From Gammaproteobacteria bacterium (GTDB lineage: Bacteria; Pseudomonadota; Gammaproteobacteria; Pseudomonadales; Azotimanducaceae_A), in assembly GCA_028819775.1 (NCBI GenBank), contig JAPPKV010000481.1, positions 1 to 18,403 on the forward strand: a DNA stretch of 18,403 bases. Direction: 5' to 3'. The notes below the pieces were generated by a model. That model had not been told where the DNA came from, ran no database searches, and saw nothing but the letters and a program-made list of their open reading frames with translations. The position numbers and the translations under genes were made by a program. Shown one piece after another: positions 1 through 18,403 of this stretch. The first letter of the stretch is position 1, and every line of letters begins with the position of its first letter.

Positions 1-2
1 CC

Positions 3-2231: not shown

Positions 2232-2254
2232 TGGACTCGACCGAACAGTAACAC

Positions 2255-2271
2255 GACCTAGCTTGACCTAG
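2255..2271. repeat. Tandem GACCTAG heptamers upstream of the RexA-like gene
   Basis: Two exact copies of GACCTAG (2255-2261 and 2265-2271) are separated by CTT, giving a 10-base period of about one helical turn. They lie 24-40 bases upstream of the ATG at 2231. The position suits a small operator or activator site for the Rex-like pair. The rest of the 208-base gap (2232-2439) shows no clear -35/-10 pair and no gene. Two heptamers can also occur by chance. Confidence 0.3.
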
Positions 2272-2439
2272 TAGATCGGGGTGTAGGCGTAGGGGGGTAC
2301 TGACGGGACATGGTGCGTGCCGTGAACTGCGCCATCGCTACCACGACGGTTCCAGCGCGCGAGGAGGCGGGCTTGGTTCAGATACGTACAGCGCACCGGT
2401 ACGGGTGGAGCGGTGGCCCATGGCGCCACAGTTGGTCTG

Positions 2440-3222
2440 CTACTCGGTGGCGGTGACGTTAGCCCCTCGGAAGACCTTGGCACGGTGCCAAGGTAGGTAG
2501 TCCTCGTGCATTGAGTCGAGACCGTCGACCTTGAGCCAGCCGTCCAACCCAAGAGTCGAGTAGGTGTCGGGAGGAAGGCTGGTCGAGCAGAGCACGGATC
2601 CGCTCTCGGCGATGGTGATGAGCCCGGTATCGAACAGCGCATCGACGTGCGGGGCCAGTAAGAGGCCGTTAAAAACATCAAGGCGCTCGCCATCAGTGGC
2701 GCAGTCCGCCCAAGGCTTGATGTGGCTGGCCCGAAGGAGTTCGGGCACGTCGAGCCCAGTGATGGCGCAACGTCCGTCCCAAAACTCTAGCAAGCCGCGG
2801 CGGAAGATGTCTTGGCCGACTCGCTGGACCACCAAACGTTCGGCCTCGGTCGTGCGAGGCAGGTTCGCGGTTTGTTGGTTGAAGGCATCGAGCAACGCGT
2901 GCGGCAGCGTCCGGGCGAGCTGGAAGGCGCGGCGCAGCAGGCGGTGCAGCGATGCGATGTCAACCAGGCGATAGGCACCTACGGCGGCGGCCGGGAGCGT
3001 ACTGGACCACGCCTCGCCGTGGCCGTCCAATGCGCTGAGGACGTCAGTTCTGGATGCCGCCGCGACGAATCGCGGCTCGACGGTAGCGGAGAGCCAGATG
3101 CGCATCTTGGTCTGGCTGCTGCCGAAGACGAGCCAGTCGTTCTCGCGGCCCAGACCGAGGTCGAAGCCATTATCGGTGGCTGCCTTCGACAGGCGCGCAA
3201 TGTTGACTGCGGCGATAGTCAA
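2440..3222 (-). CDS. HNH endonuclease, HNH_2-type
   Basis: This 260-residue protein is a member of the restriction-like HNH_2 family. The nuclease core begins with RVGQDIFRRGLLEFW (134-148), then CAITG (152-156), RASHIKPW (164-171, catalytic His167), NGLLLAPHVDALFD (185-198, Asn185, His192, Asp194) and a conserved tail (YLPWHRAKVF, 242-251). Such enzymes cut DNA with a divalent metal and are often found near restriction and defence genes. The N-terminal 110 or so residues are an uncharacterised alpha/beta region that could recognise DNA or a partner. The start is TTG at 3222, which overlaps the previous gene's stop in TTGA; I see no in-frame ATG or GTG near this N-terminus, so translational coupling to the PtuB-like gene is likely. 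It is the last gene of the operon. It shares no obvious homology with the neighbouring HNH protein beyond the fold. Confidence 0.85.
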   Translation of the reverse strand: MTIAAVNIARLSKAATDNGFDLGLGRENDWLVFGSSQTKMRIWLSATVEPRFVAAASRTDVLSALDGHGEAWSSTLPAAAVGAYRLVDIASLHRLLRRAFQLARTLPHALLDAFNQQTANLPRTTEAERLVVQRVGQDIFRRGLLEFWDGRCAITGLDVPELLRASHIKPWADCATDGERLDVFNGLLLAPHVDALFDTGLITIAESGSVLCSTSLPPDTYSTLGLDGWLKVDGLDSMHEDYLPWHRAKVFRGANVTATE

Positions 3223-3950
3223 AGGCGTTGCCCGAGCTCTTTGCGAAGCCAGGCAACCCGGATGCTCACATGGGCTGGTCGCGGGTTCTGGTCCAGGATC
3301 TCGTCAGCCCGGGCGGCGCGGTCCTGTCGCGACGCGGTTCGGCCCGCGAACGCGCGACCGAGCCGGGCCCGCTCTTGATCCAAGGCCGCCCTGCGTGCCG
3401 CCGTCAACGTTGGGTGATTGAGGTTCAGGATGGCGGGCCGGTCGCCAGTGCCGTTGATGGCGAGTTCGAGAGCGTGGCGAATCACATCGCTCGCGGGCGC
3501 GTTGTCGTGCAGACGCATCTCGCCGCGGGCGTTGTAGCCGACCAATCGTTCGTAGGCCAACTCGGTCGGCCAAGGGAGTTCTGGTCCGTCGATGCCGAGC
3601 CACCGATCACCCTTGGCGGCGTCGCAGGTGTCTGCCGTGGGGCATGAGAGGTAGAGGTTCGCCCAGTGGAGGGCGAATTCGGACGCCCTGTTCAAAGGCC
3701 GCCAGTGCTCAACGTGCGGCGTCTTGTCCTCGGACAGCCGCCGCTCGCAGTAGACGCACAACGAGCGCTGCTCGGCGTACATGGGTTCTCGGAGCTTGGC
3801 CTTGTCAAGCTGATCGAACTGTGTGCGGGCGGAGACGTTGCCTGCGGGCAGGATCGCCAGGAAGTCCCGCTCGGCGTCCACTAACCGACGCGGCGTCTGC
3901 CCACGGGGACTCACGTTCAAGGGCGGAAAGCTCTTCTTCACCCCTCGCAC
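3219..3950 (-). CDS. ptuB: PtuB-like HNH nuclease (Septu / TIGR02646-type)
   Basis: This 243-residue HNH protein is of the kind paired with PtuA in Septu and in Ec78-type retrons. It shows LCVYCERRL (64-72, zinc-type Cys65/Cys68), HVEHWRP (79-85, catalytic HNH His82 in the VEH motif), WANLYLSC (96-103, Asn98) and TCDAAKGD (108-115, Cys109, Asp110, Lys113). Conserved helices follow, in which LNLNHPTL (175-182) is also typical. The predicted role is DNA cleavage controlled by the upstream ATPase. The start is GTG at 3950, chosen because GGAGG sits five bases before it inside the last codons of the ATPase gene. The ATPase stop (3951-3953) abuts the start codon with no gap. Family assignment is strong; assignment to a true Septu system is less certain because the pair lies within a larger helicase/methylase operon. 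Confidence 0.85.
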   Translation of the reverse strand: MRGVKKSFPPLNVSPRGQTPRRLVDAERDFLAILPAGNVSARTQFDQLDKAKLREPMYAEQRSLCVYCERRLSEDKTPHVEHWRPLNRASEFALHWANLYLSCPTADTCDAAKGDRWLGIDGPELPWPTELAYERLVGYNARGEMRLHDNAPASDVIRHALELAINGTGDRPAILNLNHPTLTAARRAALDQERARLGRAFAGRTASRQDRAARADEILDQNPRPAHVSIRVAWLRKELGQRL

Positions 3951-5204
3951 CTAATCCTCCGAGAGTTCGTCGTCTAGGAAGCCTTGGGCACGGATGAGCT
4001 CCGGATCGTCGTCACCCCATCGACGGCGGAGCCTTTCGAGTAGCCGAGTAGCAGCATTTCGGTCACCGCCATCAACCGCGTCATACAGGTCCCGCAGCAT
4101 ATCGTTGCCAGCTTCGTCGCGGTCGTCGGTGTGCATGTGGTCGCGCAGGATCGCGTTGGTGTCGCGGCCCCAAACGTGAACGTCGTGTTCCCGCAATTCC
4201 CCGTTGACCAGCCACCGCACTTGGCGGTTCTCCACGCTGCTGAGTACCTGGGGCGAGTGCGTGGTGACGACGAGCTGCAACCTCGGGAAAACGCGACGTA
4301 GCCCTGGGAGAGCCACGCGTTGCCAGCGCGGGTGGAGGTGCAGGTCCAACTCGTCGATGAGGATTACTCCTTCAACTCGATCCGCTGCCTTGCCCGCGTC
4401 GAATTGGTTCAGCATGACGGCGCGCCGGGCAATGTCGGCGACCAGAGTCATGTAGACGTGGTAGCCGTCCGAGAGCTCGGACCAAGGGGCGACGTGCCCG
4501 TCTTTGAAGCGGACCGCCGGTCCTTGCTCCACCGGGTCGTACCAAGCGCCGGTGACTCTTGGAGTGGCCCGGGCCACTGCCTCCATCACGGTCGTGTGCA
4601 GGAAGCGTTCCGGTTCGCCCTGCTCCCTGCGGGCAAGGTCGCCGAGCATTTCGTCCTGGAGCCACTGAAGTAGAGGGGCCTCATCGAGGCTTGGGTCCAG
4701 CGCAGATTCGTAGGCTTCCCAACGGTCTCCGGTGCGAACGACCTTCCTCCGGCCAGGATGCTGGCGGCCGAGACGATCAACGCCATACCAGGCGAATAGG
4801 GGCCACGGCCCTCCAGGCACTCGGGTCCGCTCCAACGCATCTTGGATGGACTTGCGCTTGTTCGATACGCGTTGAGTCCGGGGGTCAGCAATCGTGGACC
4901 ATGTCGGTAGTTCTTCATCGCCCACTTGGGCAGTCCAAGTGATCTCGCATTTGCCGACCGGTTCTCGTCGCGCGGTTTCACCCAGCGTGCGCATTCGAGG
5001 ATCACGGTGACGGTCGAGCTTGAGGTCTTGCGACGTACCCACCTGGAAGGCGGCTAGGCCCATGGCCAGCGCGGTGAGCAGGGCGGTCTTGCCGCCGCCG
5101 TTCTCGGCGAAGAGCACCGTAGTGTCCGCTTCGAGCGAAAGCGTCAATGTCTCGAAGCAGCGATAGTTCTCGACACGAAGCTCGCGGAACTGAAGTCGGC
5201 TCAT
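3951..5204 (-). CDS. ptuA: PtuA-like AAA/ABC-type ATPase (Septu)
   Basis: This 417-residue ATPase belongs to the SMC/RecF/OLD-like group. It begins with a typical RVENYRCFE segment (10-18). Walker A is AENGGGKT (33-40), with Ala where the first Gly is usual. An ABC-signature-like SELSDGYHVYM lies at 242-252, Walker B is VILIDELDLHLHP (280-292, Asp284/Glu285), and the switch His is in TTHSPQV (314-320). No TOPRIM nuclease domain follows. Instead the C-terminus has the short DTNAILRD helix and a helical tail (about 348-412) as in PtuA partners of HNH PtuB proteins. In Septu the ATPase binds nucleotide and controls the nuclease. The ATG at 5204 overlaps the methyltransferase stop in ATGA, with GGAGG five bases upstream of the start, and the PtuB-like gene follows directly. 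It is translated with, and probably works with, both neighbours. Confidence 0.87.
   Translation of the reverse strand: MSRLQFRELRVENYRCFETLTLSLEADTTVLFAENGGGKTALLTALAMGLAAFQVGTSQDLKLDRHRDPRMRTLGETARREPVGKCEITWTAQVGDEELPTWSTIADPRTQRVSNKRKSIQDALERTRVPGGPWPLFAWYGVDRLGRQHPGRRKVVRTGDRWEAYESALDPSLDEAPLLQWLQDEMLGDLARREQGEPERFLHTTVMEAVARATPRVTGAWYDPVEQGPAVRFKDGHVAPWSELSDGYHVYMTLVADIARRAVMLNQFDAGKAADRVEGVILIDELDLHLHPRWQRVALPGLRRVFPRLQLVVTTHSPQVLSSVENRQVRWLVNGELREHDVHVWGRDTNAILRDHMHTDDRDEAGNDMLRDLYDAVDGGDRNAATRLLERLRRRWGDDDPELIRAQGFLDDELSED
3956..3960 (-). promoter_or_regulatory. Ribosome binding site fixing the GTG start of the PtuB-like gene
   Basis: GGAGG (minus strand) lies inside the final codons of the ATPase gene, five bases before GTG at 3950. 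It supports this GTG over the next in-frame GTG (codon 4), which would have a spacing of about 14. Confidence 0.7.
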
Positions 5205-8200
5205 GCCGCCCTCCTCGGCGGGCCAAGCGGCGACTCGTAGGCTACACCCCTCTTGGCTGCAGCGGCGAGCGCGTCGTAGGTCTGAAGGACTAGGTACTCG
5301 GTCCGGTACTCACCGTGCTCGCGTTGCTCTGTTCGCTTGAGCGCGGGGAAGGTGTCGAGGATATGGGCGGTGTCGCCTCGCGAGAGGCCGTACAAATGGC
5401 AGAAGGCGGCGTCTATCTCGCAACGGATTAGATGGCGACGCTCGGCATCCCATAGGAACGGTGCGCCATCGTCACCGCAATCCTCGGCGAATGCCTTCAT
5501 GTTCCATGCCGTATAAGTGAGTTCCAGCACGCGTGGCAGGAACCAGTCCTGAACTCTAACCGAGCGTGCCCAAGGCGCGCGGCGTACGTATTCCTCAGGA
5601 CTGAGCCCAGGAAGCTGTCGCATCGTGAAGTATTTCAGACTGACGCCACCAACCTTCTGCCTGGCACAATAGTCGAACGGAATGCTAGACAGGTTCGCGT
5701 AAAGGCTGGCCACGAGGCGGGCATTGATGGACGGCATCATCAGCAGGAACTTGTCGTTTACGGCAGCTCGAGGAACGATGCAAGCGATGACTGTCCTGAT
5801 GTCGCTAGCGCGTGCAATGTCCCTCCATCCAAGCATCCAACGCCGGTCCCAAGTGCCCTCCAACTTGGCTGCCACCATGTCTTCGGCGACCCAGTACCTT
5901 GGCAATGTCGTCCGCCCCGGGTCGGCATGCGCAACATGGTCAAGTTCCGGGAGCTTTCCTCGGTTCGCTTGGGAATCGCTCTGTCCATCGTAAGTCCCGA
6001 AGCGATGATCGAACTGGTGGACCATCTTCGCCTCGTACAACGGCAACAGGATCTTCCCATCCTTCTCAAACCGGTCTCCGTCCAAGGTCCATCCATCCGC
6101 TTCCAAGTCGTTCCTCGTGCGGAAGAGGCCGGAGTCATTAGCCATGTGAAACATGCTCAGAAACCGGAGTCCCCATGGATTGCCGTCCGGGTCGTCCTCG
6201 CGCCACAAGACTCCCCCTCGACGGTACATCGTCAAGTTGATGTTGGCGTCGCGATGTGACCTGAAAGTGGGGCAGGTCCGCGTGTTCGGGTTTAGCGTGA
6301 CAAAGTCGCTGGGGGTCAATGCGAAGTGCCGCCACGGGTCTTCGAGATCGGTTGCACGGCGCGCATAGAACACGAGATCGGCTTGACGGGACTCCCGGAT
6401 TGTCAGGAGAAGGAAGCGGTATCTGTGGTGGAGGCCCTTGAAGACGAGGCTTTCGTTTTCAAAGTGATGGACGCTGGCAAGCGCGTGACGGGTCAGAACG
6501 GCTTGGAAGTAGTGCTTGGTGGTGTCGTCAGTGACGATTCCACTCGGTACGATGAAGCCTGCGCACCCCCCGTGGGCCAGCACGGCCCAATTGTGCTCCG
6601 CGAACAACGCATAGGTGTTCACGTCGCCCCTGCCACACAGCGGATAGCGTTTGGACTGCCGAACGAAGTGGCTCTGTCCTTGCGCGATCCGCGATTCGCT
6701 CCGCCATTCCATCCATAGCGCCGGGTCCGTGACCGGCAGCGCGGCAATCAGCCTCTTGCGCGCTGCAGCGTTCCGTGCACCGGCGATCGACGGATCGCGC
6801 TTAGCGAAGAACTCCTGTTCTTGCAGCTTGACGCGCTCCCACGGCGGGTTGCCGAGCACCACGTCGAAACCGCCTCGCTCGAAGACATGCGGGAACGCTA
6901 GCTCCCAATGGAAGAACCCGTAGTCAGCCGCAATGCGACGTGTCGTGGCAACGAGTCTCTTCGGTGCCGGTCCCTCCCGTTCCCGAAGCGCACGCCAGGT
7001 GGCCGTGGTTGGTGCGGCCTCGAAGTCGGCACCTACTTCGGCCTTGGGCCACAGGAACGCAGCGCACCACGCGTCCGCCACCAGCTTCTCGTGCTCGTAG
7101 GTCGCCGATGCCAAGAGCGCACTCCACCGCCGCTCCTTGTCCGCCAAGGAAACGACATCCGTATCCGGGGCTTGCTCGACCGTGCGGATGTCTTCGCTCA
7201 GTGTGTCGTCGCCCTCACCGCGCTCGAACGGAAGCCTGGGCTCCCCGGAGATGTCATCCTTGTTGCGCCTTCTGAGCGCCCGGACGACCTTGTTGTCGTC
7301 GCCCTCGAGTGCGACCCACGCGGCGTCAGGTACCCGGTCGCCCATCAGCTCGGAGTTCGTGCCAATGAGGGCGTTGCCGCGCCGGATGTGGCTCTCCAGG
7401 AACGTAAGCGGCAGTCCCGGATCGATCGACTCCATCCACAAACCCACCTTGCAGATTTCCACCGCCAGCGGATTCTGGTCGACACCGTAGATGCAGCGGC
7501 GAACGACATCGCGGAGCGCGCTCTGATAGTCGTCCGGAGTGGGCGTGCCTCCGGTTCGGATACGCGCAACCCGGTCGGCAAGTCGACGCGCCGCTGCCAG
7601 CAGGAAGTGCCCGGAACCGCAAGCCGGGTCCACGATGGCGAGGTCGAGGAGCGCCTCGACCGCGCTGTCGGGGTTGGCGTCTACGGTTCGGTCGATGACG
7701 GGGTCGAGAGCGGTCCCTAGGAGGACTTGAACGAGTTCGTCCGGCGTGTAGTAGCTCCCGGTGGTCTTGCGGGCATGGCCTAGGCTCTCGCCGCCCCCCG
7801 CGAATGTGAACGAACGCCCGTTTTCGACGATTTGCGGCACCAGTTCCAGCAATCCTTCGTAGACGTAGCCCAGTTCGTCGGGGCCCATGTCGCGCCAGTT
7901 CACGCGAACGAGACCGGACTGATCCCTAAGCCATGCAAGGCAGAAGACCGCCTGGAGAAGGGTACGATTGTCGAGTTTCGCGGTGTCGAGATGGCGACAC
8001 CGATCCTGCGCGAACAAGCCGGCGAGGGCAGGAATTCCGAGCCTGGGCTCGCCGACGGCGAGGGATCGGAAGACGATCCTCACCATCTCCCAGAGGTCGC
8101 CGTGGCGATCATGGGCGCCGCGCCGTACGGCTCGGTCCCGCAAGAGGCGCAAGGCGTAGCCATCGGCGTAGAGGGTACGGGCCGACTCCGTTGCGTCCTT

Positions 8201-9148
8201 GGCGTGGAGCAGATCCCGCTCTTCAACGGTGAGAACGAAAACGAGCCGATAGACCAGTCGCAGTAGTTCCTCGAAGTAGCCTTCGGTCGACAGTTTGCCG
8301 TCGCGTAGCGCGATGTGAAGATCCTTGTTGGCGGCATGGGCGAGGAACCCTTGGCCGAGTATCTCAAGTGCCTGTCGAAAGCCGTCGCTCAGCCTTTCCC
8401 GGGCCGGCGTGCCCTCCTGCTGGGCGGTCTCCCGCCAACGTTCGAGCGGGCAAGCTGTGGGGGGGTCTGACGGGCGACCGAAGCGGGTCTCGTGGGCGAG
8501 CAGCCACAGCGCGGCGAAGTCCGAATACAGTTCTTCGGCGAAAATCCTGCCGAGATCCGCCTCGATCCAAGCAGGTCGCGTGAGGCTCGCGTTGTCGCGG
8601 GCGATGCGCAGGGTCAGCCCGTCCGTCGCCAACCCCCAAAGGGCGTCCGGGCTGGCGTTCAGGAATTCCTGCACTAGCCCGAAGGCAGTCCGTCTACGCC
8701 CGTCAACGCCAAAGTCGGAGAGGGGCGCATCCAAACCCGCGCCGATGGGCGCAACGACGATCGGAACCCGTTCGCCAATCGCGAAGAACTGCAGGGGATA
8801 CTCCGGCGCCCCATCCTCTGCTGACGTTTGCTGAAGTTCCCGGACCAATGACTTGAAGCAGAGCGCGTCGCGCAGAAGGGCCTCAACGAAACGGTCGGCA
8901 AGTGCGCGGGCATCGCCCCCTGATGCTCGTCCCGTCTCCATCGCTTGGAAGCAAGCTTGGGCGATACGCCAACTTCGTGAGATCTCGTCGCGTAGTTCCA
9001 GCCCAGCGGGGATGCCGTAGTCGGCTGGCGTTTGGCTGTCGGCGCGGAGTTGGGCCACTTTCGCCAACCAGTCCGCCCCCAGCAGTCCACCCTTGATCGA
9101 GAGCGCGTCGAACCCGATCCGAGCGTCGGTCTGACCTGGACAAGCCAC
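5201..9148 (-). CDS. Large adenine-N6 DNA methyltransferase, Eco57I/PglX/DrmMI-like
   Basis: This 1315-residue class I SAM-dependent DNA methyltransferase carries GSYYTPDELV (464-473), SAM-binding motif I VDPACGSGHFLL (506-517), IYGVDQNPLAVEICK (553-567) and catalytic motif IV GNPPW (766-770). The NPPW form predicts N6-adenine methylation. The region from about 800 to 1200, including KVGGVSLKYFTMRQLP (1165-1180), is the target-recognition and helical part seen in type IIG and PglX-like enzymes. The N-terminal 460 residues are long and helical; I do not see a convincing PD-(D/E)XK nuclease there, so it may be a methylase only, like PglX of BREX or DrmMI of class 1 DISARM. Next to an SNF2 helicase, the DISARM reading is preferred: it would mark host DNA as self. 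The start is GTG at 9148, one base after the stop of the helicase gene, with GAAGG about 10 bases upstream. Its stop overlaps the ATPase start. Confidence 0.88.
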   Translation of the reverse strand: MACPGQTDARIGFDALSIKGGLLGADWLAKVAQLRADSQTPADYGIPAGLELRDEISRSWRIAQACFQAMETGRASGGDARALADRFVEALLRDALCFKSLVRELQQTSAEDGAPEYPLQFFAIGERVPIVVAPIGAGLDAPLSDFGVDGRRRTAFGLVQEFLNASPDALWGLATDGLTLRIARDNASLTRPAWIEADLGRIFAEELYSDFAALWLLAHETRFGRPSDPPTACPLERWRETAQQEGTPARERLSDGFRQALEILGQGFLAHAANKDLHIALRDGKLSTEGYFEELLRLVYRLVFVLTVEERDLLHAKDATESARTLYADGYALRLLRDRAVRRGAHDRHGDLWEMVRIVFRSLAVGEPRLGIPALAGLFAQDRCRHLDTAKLDNRTLLQAVFCLAWLRDQSGLVRVNWRDMGPDELGYVYEGLLELVPQIVENGRSFTFAGGGESLGHARKTTGSYYTPDELVQVLLGTALDPVIDRTVDANPDSAVEALLDLAIVDPACGSGHFLLAAARRLADRVARIRTGGTPTPDDYQSALRDVVRRCIYGVDQNPLAVEICKVGLWMESIDPGLPLTFLESHIRRGNALIGTNSELMGDRVPDAAWVALEGDDNKVVRALRRRNKDDISGEPRLPFERGEGDDTLSEDIRTVEQAPDTDVVSLADKERRWSALLASATYEHEKLVADAWCAAFLWPKAEVGADFEAAPTTATWRALREREGPAPKRLVATTRRIAADYGFFHWELAFPHVFERGGFDVVLGNPPWERVKLQEQEFFAKRDPSIAGARNAAARKRLIAALPVTDPALWMEWRSESRIAQGQSHFVRQSKRYPLCGRGDVNTYALFAEHNWAVLAHGGCAGFIVPSGIVTDDTTKHYFQAVLTRHALASVHHFENESLVFKGLHHRYRFLLLTIRESRQADLVFYARRATDLEDPWRHFALTPSDFVTLNPNTRTCPTFRSHRDANINLTMYRRGGVLWREDDPDGNPWGLRFLSMFHMANDSGLFRTRNDLEADGWTLDGDRFEKDGKILLPLYEAKMVHQFDHRFGTYDGQSDSQANRGKLPELDHVAHADPGRTTLPRYWVAEDMVAAKLEGTWDRRWMLGWRDIARASDIRTVIACIVPRAAVNDKFLLMMPSINARLVASLYANLSSIPFDYCARQKVGGVSLKYFTMRQLPGLSPEEYVRRAPWARSVRVQDWFLPRVLELTYTAWNMKAFAEDCGDDGAPFLWDAERRHLIRCEIDAAFCHLYGLSRGDTAHILDTFPALKRTEQREHGEYRTEYLVLQTYDALAAAAKRGVAYESPLGPPRRAA
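5210..5214 (-). promoter_or_regulatory. Ribosome binding site of the PtuA-like ATPase gene
   Basis: GGAGG (minus strand) lies five bases upstream of the ATG at 5204, within the last codons of the methyltransferase gene. It supports the ATGA overlapping start. Confidence 0.65.
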
Positions 9149-9149
9149 G

Positions 9150-11933
9150 TCAGGCGACCTTCGGCAGAAGCACGAACGCCGCGATCACATCAGGACGGGG
9201 GATGGCGTGGACGGTTGTGGTGCCGCTCCCGCGGCTAGCTTGGCGGACACGCAGATGGTCGTCGAGCAAGGTACGCGCCCGCTCGGCTGCTAGGGCCTCC
9301 ATGTCGTCGGTGCGCTCACCTACCAGCCCGAGCGCGCGTTGCACTTCCCGCCGCCGTACATGCGGTGGCGGATCATCGGCAGGCGGCAATGCCAATAGCG
9401 AGAGGGCATCCGTACCGGTGATGGGGGTCTTGGCGGCGGGGGCCGACCAGGCGAGGGCCGTCGCCTCTTCGACCATCAGGGTCGTCTCTCGCCGACGCGC
9501 GCGGGACACGAGCTGGTGGCGCAGGCGCAGAAGCGCGACCGTCGTGCGGCTTTGCACGTCTGCTGATATCCAGCAGCCGACCCGGCCGAGTACTGAAAGG
9601 TCGTCGGCTGCCGCATCGCCGTTGGCGGCGAGGGAGCGTCCGAGCAAGGTGTCCGCGAGAATGGCGATGAGAGGGTGGCTTCGTTGCACCGGACGACACC
9701 CGGGTGCTGCCGGATAGACGAAGTCGATGGCGATGGTGTCGGAAATCCCCTCGGCTTGGAGGCGTTCGACCACTTCGGTTGGGAGTGCTCCTGTCGGCAC
9801 CTTGAATCCGTGTTGGCCCTGCTCAAGGCCGGAACCGAGGCGGGCGAGCGCTCGACTGGCGAATCGTTGCACGGTGTCCCTGTCACCCACGGCAGCCAAG
9901 CTCTTGTGCCACTCGGGCAGCACGTCGTCGGGGTTCATGCGCTGCTGGGCGAACACGGTGCGACTCTGTCTTGCCTTCTCGATGGTGTACTGCCAATGCC
10001 CCTCGAAAAGATCGAGCTGCCGGCTATCCTCCAACGCGGTGCGTCCCCTCAAGAGCACTGCCTTGAGCAACGCTTGGGTTAGCGACTGGCCTTCGTCCGG
10101 CACCGGCACTGGAACGCCGAGTTCTTCGCGAATCTTGGCGGCCTTACGCAGGATGACTCGCAGGACAGCGCCATCCACGGGATTGTTGGCACCGTAGATC
10201 AACGTGGTGCGAACGGTCCGGCTCGGCTGGCCGAAACGGTCGACGCGACCCTCGCGCTGCTCGTGTCGGGTAGGGTTCCACGACAGGTCGTAGTGGACGA
10301 CGGCGTCGAAGTAATCCTGGAGATTGATGCCCTCCGAGAGGCAGTCGGTAGCGACCAGCACTCTGGTGCCTTCGGTGCCGATCTCGACTACGCGTCGCTC
10401 GCGCTCTTCCGGAGAGTACTCTCCCGTCACCGTTTGCACCGCAACGTCAGTCAGGGTGTCGCTGAGGTAGTGAGCCACGTAGTGGGCGGTGGCAATGAAG
10501 CGGCAGAACACCACGACGTTGAAGCCATCCGCTACCAGTGCCTTCACATGATCCGAGGTCACCTTGAGCTTCGGGTCACCGCTCTGTCCAGACAAGCCTC
10601 TTGCCGACTCCATTAGACGTTCGAGTGCGGGATCGTCGCTACCGGCCGGTGGCTCCACGTCGTCCGCAATTAGGGCGACGGCGTTGCCGTCGAAGACGCG
10701 ATCCTGCATTTCCTCCGGATCCTCTGGGCCGGGATCCTCACCGGCCCGCGTACGCAGTGCCTGCACTGCGGCGGCAGGGCTCGAACCGGTGCAGCGGAGC
10801 AGCGCAAGAGTGCTCCAGAAGTTGAGACGCTGGCGCAGATCGTCCCCGCTACCGGTCTCAACGACTCCAGCGCAGTAGTCCAGGACTTCGTTGAAGAATG
10901 CCTCCCAGGCGCCGCTAAGTTCGTAGGTCAGCTCCCTGGTCTGCCGTTGGGGAAAGAGCTCTCCTTCGTGCCACTCGGCGATGTCGGGCCGCCGCCTCTG
11001 GACGAAATGGTTCGCAAGCCGTTCACGCAGCCTTGAACGCTCCCTGCCTTCTGCGTGGGCCAATGCCTGGAAGTCGGAACCCACTAGGCCGAGCAAACGA
11101 TAGAACGCATTGTCGTCGCCGCTGTGCGGTGTCGCAGTGAGCATCACGAGGTGGCGCGTGGCCTTGGCCGCCAAGGCTTGGAGTAACTCGTAGCGCTGGT
11201 GTCTACCGCGACCGGAAGAAGCGCATGTGTGCGCCTCGTCGACCATTACGAAGTCCGGGCACGCCTGTACGAAGCTGTCGCGGCGCTCGGCAGTCTTGAC
11301 GTAGTCCAGGCTGACAACCGTGTGCGGGTAAATCGAGAAGATGCTCTCGCCCGGGGGCACGCCCCGCTCCAAGCGTGGCGCACTGCGGGCGGTGACCGGC
11401 GTGGCTTGGATGTGGAAACGGATTTCCATTTCGGCAAGCCACTGGTCCACCAAATGTGGCGGGCAGAGCACTGTGGTGCGTTCAATGTCGCCGCGGTCGA
11501 GTAGCTCGCGAGCGATGAGCAGGGCCTCGATGGTTTTGCCGACCCCGACATCGTCGGCGATGAGCAGGCGAACCGGGTCGAGCTTTAGGGCCATGAGCAG
11601 CGGTACGAGTTGGTAGGCCCGTGGTTCCACCGCGATTTGGCCGAAGCTCCGGAACGGTCCGGCGCCGCGCCGCAGCGAGAGCAGCAGGGCGTCGCGCAGC
11701 AGCAGCGCCGAGTCGTGGCCCCCGAGCTGATCGGCGTTCGGCAACGCAAAGTGCGCCTCGCGAACCGGTTCGATCTCCAACGGCAGGTGGATCAGCGTCC
11801 GATCTTCGTCCGACCCCGTGACTGGTCGGACCTGGAGCGTGTCGTCCGAGCTTCCGCCGAGCACGACCCACTCGCGGCCACGGGCGGTGATGAGGCTTCC
11901 TGGTGCATAGCTATGGTCCGTCACGGTGCGCAT
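9150..11933 (-). CDS. drmD: SNF2/RapA-family helicase, DrmD-like (class 1 DISARM)
   Basis: This 927-residue protein is an SNF2-family superfamily-2 ATPase. Motif Q/I is visible as AYQLVPLLMAL (106-116) and ADDVGVGKTIEA (126-137). Next come motif II VDEAH (231-235), motif III LTATPHSGD (265-273), motif V ATDCLSEGINLQ (528-539) and motif VI with HEQREGRVDRFGQ (557-569). The last 330 residues are helical and lack a nuclease signature. This architecture and size match DrmD, the SNF2 helicase that distinguishes class 1 DISARM, although related SNF2 proteins occur elsewhere. It should translocate on double-stranded DNA using ATP. The ATG at 11933 overlaps the previous gene by 13 nt. An alternative GTG at 11924 (codon 4) would give a 4-nt GTGA overlap with AGGA eight bases upstream, and is equally plausible. 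It sits next to the adenine methyltransferase, as drmD and drmMI do. Confidence 0.82.
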   Translation of the reverse strand: MRTVTDHSYAPGSLITARGREWVVLGGSSDDTLQVRPVTGSDEDRTLIHLPLEIEPVREAHFALPNADQLGGHDSALLLRDALLLSLRRGAGPFRSFGQIAVEPRAYQLVPLLMALKLDPVRLLIADDVGVGKTIEALLIARELLDRGDIERTTVLCPPHLVDQWLAEMEIRFHIQATPVTARSAPRLERGVPPGESIFSIYPHTVVSLDYVKTAERRDSFVQACPDFVMVDEAHTCASSGRGRHQRYELLQALAAKATRHLVMLTATPHSGDDNAFYRLLGLVGSDFQALAHAEGRERSRLRERLANHFVQRRRPDIAEWHEGELFPQRQTRELTYELSGAWEAFFNEVLDYCAGVVETGSGDDLRQRLNFWSTLALLRCTGSSPAAAVQALRTRAGEDPGPEDPEEMQDRVFDGNAVALIADDVEPPAGSDDPALERLMESARGLSGQSGDPKLKVTSDHVKALVADGFNVVVFCRFIATAHYVAHYLSDTLTDVAVQTVTGEYSPEERERRVVEIGTEGTRVLVATDCLSEGINLQDYFDAVVHYDLSWNPTRHEQREGRVDRFGQPSRTVRTTLIYGANNPVDGAVLRVILRKAAKIREELGVPVPVPDEGQSLTQALLKAVLLRGRTALEDSRQLDLFEGHWQYTIEKARQSRTVFAQQRMNPDDVLPEWHKSLAAVGDRDTVQRFASRALARLGSGLEQGQHGFKVPTGALPTEVVERLQAEGISDTIAIDFVYPAAPGCRPVQRSHPLIAILADTLLGRSLAANGDAAADDLSVLGRVGCWISADVQSRTTVALLRLRHQLVSRARRRETTLMVEEATALAWSAPAAKTPITGTDALSLLALPPADDPPPHVRRREVQRALGLVGERTDDMEALAAERARTLLDDHLRVRQASRGSGTTTVHAIPRPDVIAAFVLLPKVA

Positions 11934-14900
11934 CCTAGCGCGGTTGCGAGCCGCCCGAAGGCATCGCGCCAGTCAGGCGCGTTCTCGAACCGGACCACCT
12001 CGAATCCGAGGTCTTCCAGCGGCCCCACGGCCGGAAGATCGGCATCTTCGATGATCGCCGCGACATAGTGTCGCCGCCACACGGGGCGAACGGTCCGGTC
12101 GGCGACGAATAAAGGCTCTTGGTCGGACTCGGGAATCCCACGTCGGCTCGCCTCGGCCCACCACCTTTCTGCCAGGGTATCTTCGCCAACCGCCTCGCCG
12201 GATTTGCCGGGTGGGTCATTCTCTTGGAGAACCGTGCGACCGTTTGCCAAGCGCAGCAGTAGTGTGCGGGCGTCCTCGTCGCGGCGATCGAGGAGCTCGT
12301 GATCGGGTTGGTTGTAGTAGGACATCAGGCAGCGGTAGCAGCCCGCGACGCAAGCGGGTCCTTCCTGATCCGCGAGGTCCGAAGGCGAGTCCGGCATCGA
12401 GTCAGCGTCGAGGTCCAGGTGCATGATTTGCAGTGCGCTGCGTGCCACTTCGGCCATGGCATTCTCATGGCTGACGAGACGGGTGAGGACGCCGGCACCC
12501 CCCTCCGTGGCCTCGTAGAGCAGAAAGCCCCGGCGGGCGTCGCGGGTGGGCATGGGTTCGGCGAGGACTTCGCTTTCCTCTAGTTGGAACACCGCCTCGA
12601 TGCCCCGCAGGATCGCATGTTGCACGGTGGCGTGGGCGACGTCGGAGAGCGACTCGTCAACGGGTTGAAAGAGCAGCGCGTTCTTGCGGTCCTGAACGCT
12701 GGGGACGATCCGCTGGCGCGGTGTCGCCGTGGGATCCTGCGTATTCTCGTCGTCTTCGTCCTCGTTCTTCGCCCAGTAGCCGGAGACGGGGTCGATGCTA
12801 AAGCCGAGCACCGTCTTGTTGGCCCTGCGGCGCAACCCCTTGTTCAGCCGCGTGATGGTTGCGCCGGGACCATAGGCCAGCCTCACGGCCTGCCCTTCAA
12901 GGTCGCTGACCCATGCGAAACGCACATCCATCGCTTGCTCGCGTGTGGCCCACTCGAAGGTGGTTTGAAGGTCGAAGCCCTGGCGCTGGCGTTCCTCGTC
13001 GTTCGCTGTGATCTGCACTGCGGGATATGTTGCGACGTTCTCGATGCGGTAGGTATTCCGTACAACCTCGGCGGTTCCGAGCGATTCACCGCAGGCGTGG
13101 CACATCGACACCTCGTCGTTGAAATGACCGGCACCGCAGCTCGCGCAGATTCGCACCGCCTTGGTGGGCAGTTGCGTGTCCGTTGTTGCTGATTCGTGGT
13201 GACCTAGGGATAGCATGGCTCGCACCACCCGATGGGCACGCCCCTCGTGGTAGACGAGGCTGCGCGGTCCAAACTCCGAGAGCGCCAGAAACCGCGGACG
13301 CTGCAGATAGGTCTGTCGCCCGCGCCCGTCTCGACTCGCTGGCACATAGGCGAGCAGCGGCAGCCGCGGGAAGTTGTAGCCCGGCAGGAAGCCCTCGGTG
13401 GCGAGATAGCGGTAGGTATAGAAGTCACTCGACAAGGCGCTCGTCCCGCGCTGCAACAGGTTGATCTGGTCGACTGCCTGGGCGTGCCGCGTTTGCGCGG
13501 CCCGCTTATCTCGGTAGGACGCGGAGTAGTCGTCCATGGTCTTTCGGGCGGCGTCTCGCTGCTCCTCGGCGGCGGCGAACAGATCCCGCCAGCGATCGAA
13601 CGCCCGGTCGAAGCGCCGTGCTGCATCCGCGACGATGGCATTCGAGTAAGTCTCTCGACCGGTGTACCACGGCGCTGCCTCTGGGCCGAGTTCGTCCGCC
13701 ACAAGGTCGAGAACGCGCTCAATCCGTTGCTGAGCGGCTTCCGCAACCCGCGTTTCACGGACCGCCGCCTCGACATCCTGATCGAGAGGGCGGCTTCGAT
13801 CCGGCAGGATCAGCAGTTCCGCTATGCACGGGTCCAAGGGCTGGTTGACGCACGATAGCCAGACCGCCTGGAGGTGGCTGTCGATAAGGTCTCGGTTGGC
13901 CAGTTCGAGAACGGGCGCCCGGACCTCCCCGTAGACCATCGCCTTGGGATCCTTGAAGAAATACTGGTCGTGCGGGCTCTGCGAAGAAGCGTACGTCACG
14001 ACCAGCGCGGCTTGGCCGCTGCGTCCCGCTCGGCCACCGCGCTGGGCATAGTTGGCGGGCGTCGGCGGCACGTTGCGCATGTGAACCACGTTCAACTCGG
14101 CGATGTCGACGCCGAGTTCCATCGTCGGCGAACAGAAGAGAACTGGCAGGAATCGGTTGGCCTCGTCGGCCTCTCGGATTTCCTGTTCGGCTTGGTCGAG
14201 CTCGTTGCGCTCGCGTTCGCCGTAACGGAAGCGTTTCTCGCGGATCTTTCGATTGAGCGGATCGACCTGCGCGGTGTGTTCGCGCGCCTCGAAGCCGAAC
14301 AAGGGATGCGTCGGCGCGCGCAGCATGGTCGCCAGATTCCCGTAGAGGTCCCGGAAAAACGCGTTCTGGCTGGAACCGCTCGCATCCGTCTCCGCGTCAC
14401 CGAGTCGGAACACCACGCACGCGTCGTTCAATCGCCAGCCTTGCTGATCAAAAGGCGTGCTCTCTTCGGATACGAGGCCGTGGACAGCGCCGGCGCGGAG
14501 CAGGTTCTCGATGAGTTGGTCGAGATCCTTCGACGGCAGGTCGCGGATGGACGTGTCCCCGCCCCAAAGCGAGGTTGAGCGCAATGTTCGACCGAGGGCA
14601 CTTCTGGATCCTCCGCGAACGATCAGGTCCATGTCGCGCAGCGTGCTGCGTCGGCGAGTGGGTGCCGCGACCATCAGCCAGCGCGCGCCTGCTGGTTGCT
14701 CAAACACGCCGAAGCCCCAAGGAGCCCGGAGCCGGCTGTGTGACTTGCTGACCAGTTGTTCGAGCACGGTGATGTCGAGAACCTGACTGCGGATGGCCAT
14801 CCATTTGCGCATGTGGTCCAGCAGGTGGCGATAGACCGCACGCCGGACGTCGCGACCAGCCTGCCGCAACAGGTCGTGCGATTCCCGAAACAGATCATCA

Positions 14901-17260
14901 TCAGCGGCAAGCTCGTCGATGCCAAGGTAGTCCACGCGCACCATGCCGAGTTGCTCGAGGTTCGGATTGGTGTAACGCCAACCACGGCGTTGGTCGAACC
15001 AGGTGCGGTAGGCGAGCACCTGTCGAAGCGTGGCCTCGGCGTCCTGCAAGTTGAAGCCGCGCAAGGTTGGTTCGAGCAGCCACTCAGCGCGGATTTGCTG
15101 GTCGGTGCGGTCGAAGCCGAGCCCCTGTTGTTGCGCCACGCCTAGTTGGTCGCTACGCAGCCCTTCCACGCCTGCGTCCTGCAATGCGCTTAGGAAACCG
15201 GCGCGAACGACGCTCACGAACAGGAAGTCGTTGAAGTGACCGGCTTGGAGCGCGGCATCCTGGCGGTTGTCGGTGAAGCCGAGGAGCTTGCGCGTATAGC
15301 GATCGAGCGACGAGTCCCCCCCATGCATCCATCGCAGTGCGCTGGCGACCAGTACGGTTGTCGCGGAACTGCGACCTTCCGCAGAGAGCGAGGCGAGACG
15401 GGTGCGATCACGCGATGCACCGCCCTGGGTGTTCCGGCAGCGCAAGCAGAATCGGAACTTGCCTGGCAGGAACCAGACCGCCATCCCTGCACCGACGCGG
15501 CCATCGGGCGCGACGAGATAGCGGCGCGGGCGTGCATCGCGGTAGTACCTGTTTAGCCGAGGGCGTCCACGGGCGTCGAAGTCCTGCCAGCTCTCGGGGT
15601 ATTCGTCGTCGCGGTCCGCGAACGTGAAGTCGGGATCGTCGACCGGGTGCGGGGTTACGAAGCCGAATTCTTCCGCAGGTGGCCCGTCAGCCGCTGCAGC
15701 CATGGATTCGTCCCGCGTTGGCGGCGCATCGTCGATGTCCCGGGCGCGGAATGTCGTTCCGGTCTCCGCATCCTGCACCAACCGCACGGGATGGTATTCG
15801 TGACCGCACTCGCGGCAGAAATGTGCAGGATAGAGGCGCGTGTCCGCGTGTCCGGGGAGGAACTGCTGGCCGTCGACGGTAACGGTGCGTTCGCCCGGTG
15901 GCTCAAAGGTCGAGAGTAGATGCCCAGCGCCGGAGACGAACTGATGGAGCTTGAACGCAAAGAAGCTGTGCCCGCTGGCGTCGGGTCGAGAGGTCCGAAC
16001 CTGCTCGGGCAGGCTCGATACGAGGAGGAAGTTTCGCAACACGTCGCGGCAGTCAGCGGTCGGTCGTCCCGAATCGGCCGATAGCTGGTCCACCGCTTCG
16101 GTCACCGTTTTCGGCTTCGCGCGGATCCAACGCTGGTCGTCCGCGGAGAAGGAGATGCCGAGACGCGTCTCCACCCACACCGCGAGCGGGTCCTCTTGGA
16201 GCGCCGCATTGGAGACGTGCGGCGGCGGACCGCCGCGCTCGATTGCCTCCCCGAGTACGGGGGCGACGGAGTCCGCAGTCTCCGCCGGGTCCGTGATCCG
16301 CTCTAGGGTCTCGGCAATGACGCAGTTCTCTTCGATCACACACCCGAACAATTTTGACGTGACGTCTGCGACGATGCGGTTCTTGTGCTCAAGCGACCCT
16401 TCGCTCGCCATCGTGGCCGAGGTGCCAATGCACAGGAGATTCTCGGGCTGGAGCCGTTCGCGGACGCGGCGGACGAGCAGGGCCACATCCGCGCCTTGGC
16501 GACCTCGGTACGTGTGCAATTCGTCGAGGACGAGGAAGCCAAGGCCGTTGCAGTTGGCGATGACCCGGCGGTCAGTCTTTTCCTGCCGGGTCATGAGGAG
16601 CTCGAGCATCATGAAATTGGTCAGGAGGATGTCCGGCGGGTTTTCGGCAATCCGCTCCCGCTCGTCCGAGTCTTCCTGCCCCGTGTAACGGGCAAAGGTG
16701 ACCGGGCGGTCTCCCGGAACCTGGTCGATGAACTTACCGAGTTCCTCCATCTGGGAGTTCGCGAGTGCGTTCATCGGATAGACGACGATGGCGCTCGTGC
16801 TGGGCGCAGCATCGCGCCGGCGGGCGTTCAGCACATGGCTCACGATCGGGATGAAGAAGCAAAGCGACTTGCCAGAGCCGGTACCGGTCGTCACTACGAA
16901 GCTCTCGCCCGCGGCGGCCAGCGCGATGGCCTCTTCCTGATGCTTGTATAACGAGAGAGGACCTTCCTTGTCGCGGAAGATCGTCTCGCAGCCGGGAGCC
17001 AGGACGCCGCCTGCGACAAGCTCGCCGATGTCGGTTGTGCGCTTGTAGTTGGGGTTGATCTGGATCAAGGGCTCCGGCCAGTAGCGATCCTGATCGTAGA
17101 TGGCATCGACTTGCTCGCGGATGTCCGCAGCATGAATTGTCGTGAACGACGTTGCGAAGCGCTTGTATTCGTCGACCACGCTGTCGCGAAGGGCGAAAAC
17201 GTCGAGCGCTTGCGCTGTACCCGCGTCTGTAGCGGAACGCGGTGTGTCCTTGCGGGTCAT
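11921..17260 (-). CDS. Giant DEAD/DEAH helicase with DUF1998/MZB C-terminus (DruE-like or fused DrmA-DrmB)
   Basis: This 1779-residue protein has, in order: Walker A TGTGSGKS (125-132), motif II LDELH (245-249) and SAT (281-283). A long insertion follows with Cys pairs at 482/485 and 605/608 and the YprA-type signature TDNRQDAALQAGHFNDF (663-679). Helicase-C motifs are CSPTMELGVDIAELN (1043-1057) and YAQRGGRAGRSGQ (1071-1083). A CxxC...CxxC zinc site lies at 1372-1390, and a DUF1998/MZB region has YEATEGGAGVL (1582-1592), Cys1637/1641/1644 and NQPDHELLDR (1650-1659). The size matches Druantia DruE (roughly 1800-2100 aa); in DISARM the helicase (DrmA) and DUF1998 protein (DrmB) are separate. 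I chose ATG at 17260 because AAAGGAAG precedes it; the ATG at 17278, six codons earlier, has no ribosome binding site. It is the first gene of the operon and overlaps the SNF2 gene by 13 nt. Confidence 0.87.
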   Translation of the reverse strand: MTRKDTPRSATDAGTAQALDVFALRDSVVDEYKRFATSFTTIHAADIREQVDAIYDQDRYWPEPLIQINPNYKRTTDIGELVAGGVLAPGCETIFRDKEGPLSLYKHQEEAIALAAAGESFVVTTGTGSGKSLCFFIPIVSHVLNARRRDAAPSTSAIVVYPMNALANSQMEELGKFIDQVPGDRPVTFARYTGQEDSDERERIAENPPDILLTNFMMLELLMTRQEKTDRRVIANCNGLGFLVLDELHTYRGRQGADVALLVRRVRERLQPENLLCIGTSATMASEGSLEHKNRIVADVTSKLFGCVIEENCVIAETLERITDPAETADSVAPVLGEAIERGGPPPHVSNAALQEDPLAVWVETRLGISFSADDQRWIRAKPKTVTEAVDQLSADSGRPTADCRDVLRNFLLVSSLPEQVRTSRPDASGHSFFAFKLHQFVSGAGHLLSTFEPPGERTVTVDGQQFLPGHADTRLYPAHFCRECGHEYHPVRLVQDAETGTTFRARDIDDAPPTRDESMAAAADGPPAEEFGFVTPHPVDDPDFTFADRDDEYPESWQDFDARGRPRLNRYYRDARPRRYLVAPDGRVGAGMAVWFLPGKFRFCLRCRNTQGGASRDRTRLASLSAEGRSSATTVLVASALRWMHGGDSSLDRYTRKLLGFTDNRQDAALQAGHFNDFLFVSVVRAGFLSALQDAGVEGLRSDQLGVAQQQGLGFDRTDQQIRAEWLLEPTLRGFNLQDAEATLRQVLAYRTWFDQRRGWRYTNPNLEQLGMVRVDYLGIDELAADDDLFRESHDLLRQAGRDVRRAVYRHLLDHMRKWMAIRSQVLDITVLEQLVSKSHSRLRAPWGFGVFEQPAGARWLMVAAPTRRRSTLRDMDLIVRGGSRSALGRTLRSTSLWGGDTSIRDLPSKDLDQLIENLLRAGAVHGLVSEESTPFDQQGWRLNDACVVFRLGDAETDASGSSQNAFFRDLYGNLATMLRAPTHPLFGFEAREHTAQVDPLNRKIREKRFRYGERERNELDQAEQEIREADEANRFLPVLFCSPTMELGVDIAELNVVHMRNVPPTPANYAQRGGRAGRSGQAALVVTYASSQSPHDQYFFKDPKAMVYGEVRAPVLELANRDLIDSHLQAVWLSCVNQPLDPCIAELLILPDRSRPLDQDVEAAVRETRVAEAAQQRIERVLDLVADELGPEAAPWYTGRETYSNAIVADAARRFDRAFDRWRDLFAAAEEQRDAARKTMDDYSASYRDKRAAQTRHAQAVDQINLLQRGTSALSSDFYTYRYLATEGFLPGYNFPRLPLLAYVPASRDGRGRQTYLQRPRFLALSEFGPRSLVYHEGRAHRVVRAMLSLGHHESATTDTQLPTKAVRICASCGAGHFNDEVSMCHACGESLGTAEVVRNTYRIENVATYPAVQITANDEERQRQGFDLQTTFEWATREQAMDVRFAWVSDLEGQAVRLAYGPGATITRLNKGLRRRANKTVLGFSIDPVSGYWAKNEDEDDENTQDPTATPRQRIVPSVQDRKNALLFQPVDESLSDVAHATVQHAILRGIEAVFQLEESEVLAEPMPTRDARRGFLLYEATEGGAGVLTRLVSHENAMAEVARSALQIMHLDLDADSMPDSPSDLADQEGPACVAGCYRCLMSYYNQPDHELLDRRDEDARTLLLRLANGRTVLQENDPPGKSGEAVGEDTLAERWWAEASRRGIPESDQEPLFVADRTVRPVWRRHYVAAIIEDADLPAVGPLEDLGFEVVRFENAPDWRDAFGRLATALGCAP

Positions 17261-17262
17261 CG

Positions 17263-17270
17263 CTTCCTTT
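17263..17270 (-). promoter_or_regulatory. Ribosome binding site fixing the start of the giant helicase
   Basis: AAAGGAAG (minus strand) ends two bases before the ATG at 17260, with the AAGGA core at 17265-17269 spaced four bases from it. The ATG at 17278 has no such site upstream. This decides in favour of the shorter product. Confidence 0.65.
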
Positions 17271-17278
17271 GCGTCCAT

Positions 17279-17435
17279 TGGCTCAACACGAAAACACCAC
17301 TGGCAGGCAGGAAGACAGCGGAGAGTCTCAGGAGTCGGTCCGCGAACTCAACCAAGACCCTCCAATGTCTCCGAACCGACACTGATGTGATGCGTACTCG
17401 GTATTTTGCACCGTTGTAGGGGTTGGCGGGAGTGC
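17279..17435. other. Leader and probable promoter region of the defence operon
   Basis: This 157-base gap separates the tlpA-like stop from the helicase gene and is the only place where the operon's own promoter could lie within the window. I could not find a persuasive sigma-70 -35/-10 pair; the most AT-rich stretch is around 17397-17408 (minus strand TGCAAAATACC). There is no intrinsic terminator with a T run after the tlpA-like gene, so read-through from the upstream pair is possible. A direct repeat GAGTC (two copies around 17323-17336) is too short to interpret. Confidence 0.35.
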
Positions 17436-18023
17436 CTAACGGAGCAGGCCCTCGAAGTACTCGATCGAAGAGGGCGCATCCCAGAGTGCGCTGCCCACGT
17501 GGGCGAACACGACGCGACGCGTCTCGTCGAGCACGAAGGTCGACGGGATCCCGGAACTCTGGAACACCGGCGGAACCCGCTCGGCGGTGTAGATCGGTAC
17601 CCGCCAACCCTTGTCCTCCAAGAACGGCGCCACCGTCTCGACGGGTTCGTCGGACACGATGAGGAACGCGATGTCCTCCCCAACAAGCTCCCGGACAAGA
17701 TTCTCGATGCTAGGCATCTCCTCGATGCAGGGGGCACACCAGGTCGCCCAGCGATTGACGAACACAACCTTCTGCGGGATGTCCGCGAGATCCGTCTCGT
17801 TGCCGCCGAGATCCTGCAATCGCCATGTCATCGCCGTATCGACGCCGGTCGGGAACGGCGGTGGCTGAGGACTACCTGCGGCAATGGAGAATGATGTCCG
17901 TCCCGATCCGATTGCCTGGTTCTGGATCCACACGGCAACGAGCACCAGCACGACGACGCCGAAGCCCGCAAGCGCCACCCCGGCAAGCATGCCCACGTAG
18001 AAGTTCTTGTTGAAGAAGCTCAC
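17436..18023 (-). CDS. Membrane-anchored thioredoxin-fold protein, TlpA/ResA-like
   Basis: This 195-residue protein has an N-terminal uncleaved anchor (hydrophobic residues about 9-33) followed by a thioredoxin-like domain. The active site is RWATWCAPC (91-99, redox Cys96 and Cys99), and the cis-Pro loop is SGIPSTFVLD (157-166, Pro160). This is the pattern of TlpA/ResA/DsbE thiol-disulfide oxidoreductases, which face the periplasm and reduce disulfides, for example during cytochrome c maturation. Nothing nearby indicates a specific client, so the exact substrate is unknown. The start is GTG at 18023, with GGAGG six bases upstream. It follows the SRAP stop by 18 nt, so the two are probably co-transcribed. 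It appears to be chromosomal background rather than part of the defence operon. Confidence 0.88.
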   Translation of the reverse strand: MSFFNKNFYVGMLAGVALAGFGVVVLVLVAVWIQNQAIGSGRTSFSIAAGSPQPPPFPTGVDTAMTWRLQDLGGNETDLADIPQKVVFVNRWATWCAPCIEEMPSIENLVRELVGEDIAFLIVSDEPVETVAPFLEDKGWRVPIYTAERVPPVFQSSGIPSTFVLDETRRVVFAHVGSALWDAPSSIEYFEGLLR

Positions 18024-18029
18024 AGGTTG

Positions 18030-18034
18030 CCTCC
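18030..18034 (-). promoter_or_regulatory. Ribosome binding site fixing the GTG start of the tlpA-like gene
   Basis: GGAGG (minus strand) lies six bases before GTG at 18023 in the 18-nt gap after the SRAP stop codon. It supports the GTG start, which places the hydrophobic anchor right after a short N-terminus. Confidence 0.65.
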
Positions 18035-18041
18035 GTCAATC

Positions 18042-18353: not shown

Positions 18354-18403
<50 letters not shown>

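Follow-up and report, generated by a model that had tools for sequence, protein, structure and literature searches.

A gammaproteobacterial operon that is probably a variant of ARMADA type I, with a terminal HNH endonuclease and an embedded PtuA/PtuB pair

A stretch of 18,403 nucleotides from a member of the Gammaproteobacteria (Pseudomonadales, Azotimanducaceae_A; GenBank assembly GCA_028819775.1, contig JAPPKV010000481.1, positions 1 to 18,403), hereafter the window, carries an operon of six minus-strand genes between positions 17278 and 2440. In this study, the operon was judged to be probably a variant of ARMADA type I in which the Vsr nuclease motif of the YprA helicase has been lost, a terminal HNH endonuclease would replace it, and PtuA/PtuB would form an embedded second effector. 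The Vsr motif is absent from the YprA protein of the window, and the terminal HNH protein is the obvious nuclease candidate. The distribution of the two features among related sequences indicates that the HNH protein probably replaces the lost Vsr nuclease.

Results

Gene order and relation to ARMADA type I

All six open reading frames were recovered in the window (Table 1). In the order of transcription they encode a YprA/DruE-like helicase, an SNF2 helicase, an adenine methylase, PtuA, PtuB and the terminal HNH protein, with successive junctions of -13, +1, -4, 0 and -4 nucleotides, which bears out the initial annotation of six coupled minus-strand genes with overlaps or gaps of at most 1 nucleotide. 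Families were assigned by scanning the nine open reading frames of the window against PADLOC, Pfam and NCBIfam; the PADLOC matches lie far above chance, and the identities proposed earlier (two helicases, an adenine methylase, an ATPase and two HNH proteins) stand.

ARMADA was named in a 2025 preprint (bioRxiv, September 2025; PMC12458937), the main text of which describes type I as "generally arranged" as a YprA homologue, a BrxHII-like helicase and a PglX-like methylase. The first three genes of the window form the same set in the same order, and the YprA-like helicase has the MZB (DUF1998) domain. Unlike the published type I, the window has a YprA protein without the C-terminal, predicted-active Vsr nuclease motif, and both a terminal HNH gene and PtuA/PtuB lie within its operon. 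Vsr fusions on YprA are typical of ARMADA I according to the same main text, and are taken here as typical, not defining. Other features of ARMADA type I are a BrxA-like helical insert, a beta-barrel zinc module and a MarR-like domain; the preprint gives WP_108720193.1 as representative of the type. In its main text, a keyword search finds HNH a single time, within the title of a cited work, and neither Septu nor Ptu. The probable nuclease swap and PtuA/PtuB as slot occupant go beyond the main text of PMC12458937; the core itself is already known, and so is the principle that a host system can carry an embedded defence module.

Vsr motif and terminal HNH gene

The 41 aligned YprA proteins have two kinds of C-terminus. 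By alignment and pattern scan, a Vsr/DUF559-like motif, D-F/Y ... D-G-x-x-H, is present in 23 of the 41 and absent from the other 18, the window included (one of these 18, from L067, is truncated where the retrieved sequence stops). When 21 of the 23 motif-bearing complete proteins were aligned (profile A4, leaving out L072 and L073), D236, F237, D249, G250 and H253 were invariant; among 16 of the 18 motif-less proteins (profile A5, leaving out L022 and the cut-off L067 and including the HNH-less L025), no column was invariant after R166. Pfam DUF559 matched 17 of the 21 motif-bearing C-termini at E<=1, and Pfam Vsr matched three of them weakly (best 0.077); neither matched any of the 16 motif-less C-termini at this threshold. 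The last 286 residues of the window helicase likewise gave no DUF559 match at E<=1.

An HNH gene lies downstream of the methylase in 18 loci, the window included. Both features could be scored in 45 loci, again with the window: 18 have the HNH gene and lack the motif, 26 have the motif and lack the HNH gene, none has both, and one has neither. Two later loci outside the 45, L098 and L121, also carry the motif without the HNH gene. The sole locus with neither, L025 of Kozakia baliensis, has an IS21 pair (18827-21128) directly after the methylase; this pair occupies the place where relatives carry the HNH gene. The SNF2 tree shows three changes of HNH state and two of Vsr state. Hydrogenimonas L012 stands among Vsr-bearing loci on the tree and again has the HNH gene without the motif, on a branch drawn open. 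The exclusion is striking but derives mainly from one clade together with L012. In HNH-less loci, 1.8 to 7.9 kb of downstream sequence was covered (22 of 27 measured), so that a more distant HNH gene would be missed.

In 16 plasmid records, a single place covers 80% or more of the HNH protein. Of these, 14 also appear among the records with the SNF2 gene, and they include near-copies in Acinetobacter soli and Acidithiobacillus caldus. The other two, from Paracoccus versutus and Vibrio sp. 16, do not appear there and show no core gene in the sequence retrieved.

Survey of relatives

A scan of genome contigs gave four loci with the same gene order, L001 to L004, whose SNF2 proteins are 96% (L001), 71% (L002) and 42% (L003 and L004) identical to that of the window. 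Further relatives were sought with the PADLOC model PDLC02853 (E<=1e-100), which matched in 7 of 369 genomes of the class of G001 (the genome of L001), 13 of 398 of its phylum, 22 of 297 of the phylum of G002 (the genome of L002), 8 of 48 of the class of G377 (all eight already in the scan of the phylum of G001) and 2 of 181 of the class of G694; G001 and G694 are counted twice across these scans. PDLC02853, the PADLOC model with the best fit to the SNF2 gene of the window, bears the label DpdE; judging from the YprA-like or methylase neighbour at the fetched places, it seems to be a model of the SNF2 helicase of ARMADA I.

The 51 SNF2 loci comprise the window, the four loci of the first scan, 28 genome places and 18 plasmid records chosen from 69 with the SNF2 gene; some of the loci are cut off by contig ends. 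The 28 were taken from 42 places (class and phylum of G001, phylum of G002); the remainder were 12 with less than 5 kb of contig, mostly nothing, after SNF2, and the two that equal L001 and L002. The choice among the 69 plasmid records passed over near-copies and most of those from Deinococcus, Thermus and cyanobacteria. Six of the 51 tree rows have no known HNH state (four of them no Vsr state either) and lie outside the 45 scored loci. Among viral contigs, the SNF2 alignment found 15 loci, of which L098 and L099 were examined; PtuA, the PtuA alignment and the HNH alignment found no relatives there.

The slot after the methylase gene

In the 18 HNH-bearing loci, the slot between methylase and HNH holds an SMC-like protein in seven, a HEC-03 pair in two, and a PDC-M25 pair, PtuA/PtuB, a UvrD-like protein and unassigned proteins in one each; it is empty in five. 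Some slot proteins were scanned against the family libraries; for the others, the assignment comes from BLAST linkage.

HNH-less loci also carry modules at this position. For example, the Vsr-bearing L065 has a complete Gabija pair after the methylase (2379-6109, minus strand; GajA 1.7e-189, GajB 6.7e-215), and L093 of Nocardioides has an annotated AAA ATPase and McrC directly after it (18824-22733). PDC-M07A occupies the position in L063 and SMC-like proteins do so in L064, L069 and L071-L073; the first slot genes of L070 and L081 have no family match, and other HNH-less loci hold further proteins. The slot is not comparable in seven loci (L067, L085, L086, L088, L089, L092 and L121), where YprA is encoded after the methylase. 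Many occupants, not all, are ABC- or SMC-type ATPases with a partner. The slot may be enriched for defence modules, which is a reading of these occupants and not a controlled comparison with the neighbours of other defence loci.

Two further observations concern gene content around the core. McrB/McrC genes lie nearby in L091 of Deinococcus radiodurans (21261-25504). In L010 of Acidithiobacillus caldus, a toxin-antitoxin pair (annotated Phd/YefM and VapC) lies at 14815-15449 between SNF2 and methylase, a gap that forms a second entry point for extra genes into the operon.

Occurrence of PtuA/PtuB

Among the 51 SNF2 loci, some of them truncated, an intact PtuA/PtuB pair was seen in the slot of the window only; the idea that PtuA/PtuB belongs invariably to ARMADA I was rejected for this reason. 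The nearest relative, G001, the only one found at 96% identity, has a decayed copy of the operon over two contigs. On the first (L001, 9900-10100) the end of YprA and the start of SNF2 are missing; the second, C422 (L115/L118), holds a frame-broken methylase fragment, then a C-terminal remnant of PtuA, then PtuB, and last an HNH gene that has lost internal sequence. This copy keeps the order methylase-PtuA-PtuB-HNH.

The lists of the best 120 relatives of SNF2, PtuA and HNH in the protein database were also compared for contigs of the same size. SNF2 and PtuA have 13 sizes in common, SNF2 and HNH seven (a count that includes the window itself), and PtuA and HNH eight; the control means with jittered sizes were 0.11, 0.10 and 0.21, respectively, and a contig of 30684 is common to all three lists. 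These are coincidence counts only, as a shared size on megabase contigs does not imply adjacency. They hint at more PtuA/PtuB-bearing relatives in the close clade. In plasmids and phages, PtuA has distant relatives, with at most 33.6% identity among the matches listed.

Table 1. Genes and regions of the window operon, and slot occupants in loci with the HNH gene
Feature	Position or locus	Strand	Support or remark
YprA/DruE-like SF2 helicase (ArmC-like), 1785 aa	11921..17278	-	PADLOC DruE1 1.7e-87; Pfam DEAD, Helicase_C, MZB (DUF1998); Vsr-type motif absent
Degenerate helicase C-terminal region, last 86 residues, extent approximate	11924..12181	-	relatives carry D-F/Y ... D-G-x-x-H here
BrxHII/RapA-like SNF2 helicase (ArmA-like), 927 aa	9150..11933	-	PADLOC PDLC02853 3.6e-180, DrmD 4.6e-75, BrxHI 5.8e-60; Pfam SNF2-rel_dom, Helicase_C
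PglX/DrmMI-like adenine-specific DNA methyltransferase (ArmB-like), 1315 aa	5201..9148	-	PADLOC DrmMI 9.8e-63; Pfam Eco57I 3.6e-20, N6_Mtase 8.3e-9
PtuA-like ABC-type ATPase, 417 aa, slot after methylase	3951..5204	-	PADLOC PtuA 2.2e-89
PtuB-like HNH nuclease, 243 aa	3219..3950	-	PADLOC PtuB 2.7e-25
Terminal HNH_2 endonuclease, 260 aa, TTG start	2440..3222	-	Pfam HNH_2 7.6e-14; PADLOC HNH model PDLC04132 6.7e-25
PtuA/PtuB in slot	window
SMC-like slot protein	L008, L011, L021, L022, L023, L075, L076		L008 matches Lamassu LmuB 2.5e-16
HEC-03 pair in slot	L009; L084 with added RNA ligase		L084 second gene match weak, 2e-7
PDC-M25 pair in slot	L012		across plasmid origin, seen as L119
UvrD-like slot protein	L013
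Slot proteins without assignment	L027
Empty slot	L002, L010, L024, L026, L077

Discussion

Possible mechanism and meaning

By analogy with ARMADA type II, the methylase would mark self DNA, and the SNF2 and YprA helicases may be loaded onto foreign DNA that is unmarked or replicating and translocate along it. The HNH protein would be recruited to the helicase complex and make the cut that is predicted for Vsr in other ARMADA I systems. PtuA and PtuB, a Septu-like pair, may be a second effector embedded in the slot, which in relatives holds other ATPase-plus-partner modules. The restriction-like logic of the initial annotation was judged right, and its guess that HNH enzymes stand in for a missing nuclease survives in part: the nuclease that was lost appears to be the Vsr domain of ARMADA I itself, not DrmC. 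Its single six-gene unit agrees with the tight coupling of the genes and disagrees with the separability of the HNH gene (18 loci) and of PtuA/PtuB (intact in the window only).

A broader proposal can be made tentatively, and it could well prove wrong: ARMADA I may be a chassis with two exchangeable effector positions, namely a main nuclease, either fused Vsr or terminal HNH, and a port after the methylase, whose modules (Septu, Gabija, HEC-03, PDC-M25, Lamassu-like SMC, McrBC) would run under control of the core. If this is true, some separately catalogued defence systems are interchangeable plug-ins of larger machines. The nuclease step of ARMADA would become directly testable, since nature provides the same core in two forms, one whose nuclease is fused and one whose nuclease is separate, and the loci would offer a natural experiment on a change of cutting subunit in a restriction-like system.

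Comparison with other systems

The window resembles class 1 DISARM in its DrmD-like helicase and DrmMI-like methylase; unlike DISARM, it has one DruE-like fused helicase/MZB protein instead of separate DrmA and DrmB, and Pfam gives no PLD domain family, as expected for DrmC, among the nine scanned window proteins. The large DruE-like helicase is shared with Druantia, the partner genes of which are DruABCD, DruMFG or DruH; none of these is among the nine scanned proteins. In Septu, PtuA and PtuB form a complex with an ATP-controlled nuclease. The window likewise has a PtuA ATPase and a PtuB HNH partner, adjacent and co-directional, and differs in that they lie inside another operon.

The window also lacks the order of ARMADA type II, which is helicase, methylase, YprA and a GajB-like helicase with a RelE-like domain. 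According to the main text of PMC12458937, all four genes of type II are required, there is no metabolic shutdown, and the system depends on the Walker motifs of the YprA and SNF2 helicases and the NPPW motif of the methylase. The translation of the window methylase carries an NPPW motif.

The initial annotation had allowed that a helicase-methylase-ATPase type might already be catalogued. Such a type does exist in Hma, an operon of helicase HmaA, 5-methylcytosine (m5C) methyltransferase HmaB and ATPase HmaC that is reported to be frequent near Septu type I (PMC8565338). Hma was rejected as the identity of the window operon because its methylase is an m5C enzyme, whereas that of the window is an Eco57I/N6_Mtase adenine enzyme. 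PMC12988326 presents "guilt-by-embedding" candidates, Hma-embedded ones among them (see also PMC10855318). Embedded HEC and PDC modules are therefore in print, and the HEC-03, PDC-M25 and PDC-M07 genes in the ARMADA I slot of relatives of the window fit this work.

For BREX and BREX-related loci, the main text of PMC12839542 (Nucleic Acids Research, January 2026) reports nucleases, including HNH enzymes, that compensate for the lack of a helicase-nuclease fusion. It also presents pairs of an OLD-type ABC ATPase and an HNH protein, inside the core locus or next to it, as backup effectors. Unlike the window, the cores there are BREX or DUF499-ATPase systems; the BREX-related Type-1 systems were rejected because their core is a DUF499 ATPase. 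YprA, DISARM, ARMADA and Septu have zero occurrences in this main text by keyword search. Searches of a full-text library, with supplements and most subscription papers outside reach, gave no paper that by its title or the opening of its abstract deals with ARMADA together with Septu or with HNH.

Alternative explanations

Several points weigh against the proposed nuclease replacement and embedding. Fisher's p of 1.1e-11 overstates the exclusion of HNH and Vsr, because there are few state changes on the tree. Of three independent pairs, two fit the exclusion and one shows no difference (sign test p 0.5), and with only three pairs the test cannot reach significance; the pattern may reflect shared descent without function. 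A structure model of the C-terminal part of the helicase (mean predicted local distance difference test score, pLDDT, 68.7) resembles no PDB entry at E<=0.001, so that a remnant nuclease fold is unsupported there. Its best match is MrfA (E 0.04); the matches listed (50 of 632) include weak ones to the ribonucleases Cas6 and Cse3 and to viral nickase domains and none to a Vsr or restriction-type nuclease. The assignment to ARMADA I comes from gene set, order and domains, not from the published tree, and should be read as provisional. Samples of 369 and 199 genomes (E<=1e-80) and of 117 (E<=1e-50) yielded no PtuA, an empty answer that by the search tool's own warning shows nothing; the PtuA/PtuB part of the reading therefore relies on the window, one decayed relative and the contig-size coincidences.

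The operon could instead hold independent neighbours, a complete ARMADA I and an inserted Septu without joint function, with the HNH gene belonging to either. PtuA and PtuB work alone as Septu elsewhere, the intact pair is confined to the window among the 51 loci, and other loci hold other complete modules, such as GajA/GajB in L065. However, the junctions of -4, 0 and -4 nucleotides and the decayed copy in the same order argue against mere neighbourhood, and PtuA relatives of 67-90% identity share the 13 contig sizes with SNF2 relatives, so that the linkage appears to be kept; this explanation is unlikely, without being far-fetched. The initial annotation had regarded its reading as refuted if the helicase/methylase and ATPase/HNH blocks were almost never adjacent in homologous loci. 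This is the case for ARMADA I at large and perhaps not for the close clade, given the 13, 7 and 8 contig sizes in common.

It is quite unlikely that the HNH gene is an accessory by descent, with the Vsr motif already dispensable and the HNH protein in another role, e.g., a modification-dependent second cut. The few independent events on the tree would fit this, as would the best solved relative of the HNH domain, 6yex (profile A3, positions 123-252, 6e-27), an HNH endonuclease from a modification-dependent enzyme. Inactivated Vsr domains are described in Druantia I and II (PMC12458937, main text), which points the same way. The absence of any locus with both HNH and intact Vsr among the 45, the IS21 pair in the sole locus with neither, and the recurrence in L012 nevertheless speak for replacement. 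As for a genuine DISARM/Druantia/Septu hybrid, as first annotated, each part does match models of these systems. Such a hybrid is highly improbable and was rejected, because the helicase/methylase block has the set and order of a published three-gene system (PMC12458937, main text); in addition, the nine scanned reading frames include neither DrmA and DrmB as separate genes, nor DrmC, nor any partner gene of Druantia.

Minor features of the window

The TTG start of the terminal HNH gene is backed by a 77%-identical relative (P0010) with the same first residue; a structure model of this protein had a mean pLDDT of 39 and was unusable. The earliest ATG of the first gene lies at 17278, 18 nucleotides upstream of the end at 17260 in the first reading. 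The SNF2 gene also matches HmaA in PADLOC (9.8e-53) and RapA in NCBIfam (1.3e-35, under the model's cut-off). The methylase scored under the curated cut-offs of the NCBIfam BREX PglX models, and PtuA and PtuB under those of the retron Ec78 equivalogs. The PtuA profile (A1) matches solved PtuA chains, e.g., 22bu, 9kjx and 8ee4; PtuB matches solved PtuB chains weakly (best 2.5e-4), and the Pfam scan gives no family for it.

Downstream of the operon and co-directional with it lie two genes, 617-1183 (188 aa) and 1206-2231 (341 aa), with no family at E<=0.001 in the three libraries. The gene at 17436-18023 is thioredoxin/TlpA-like, and positions 18354-18403, where the window ends, repeat one base 50 times (C when read on the minus strand), which is probably an artefact of assembly or of the contig end.

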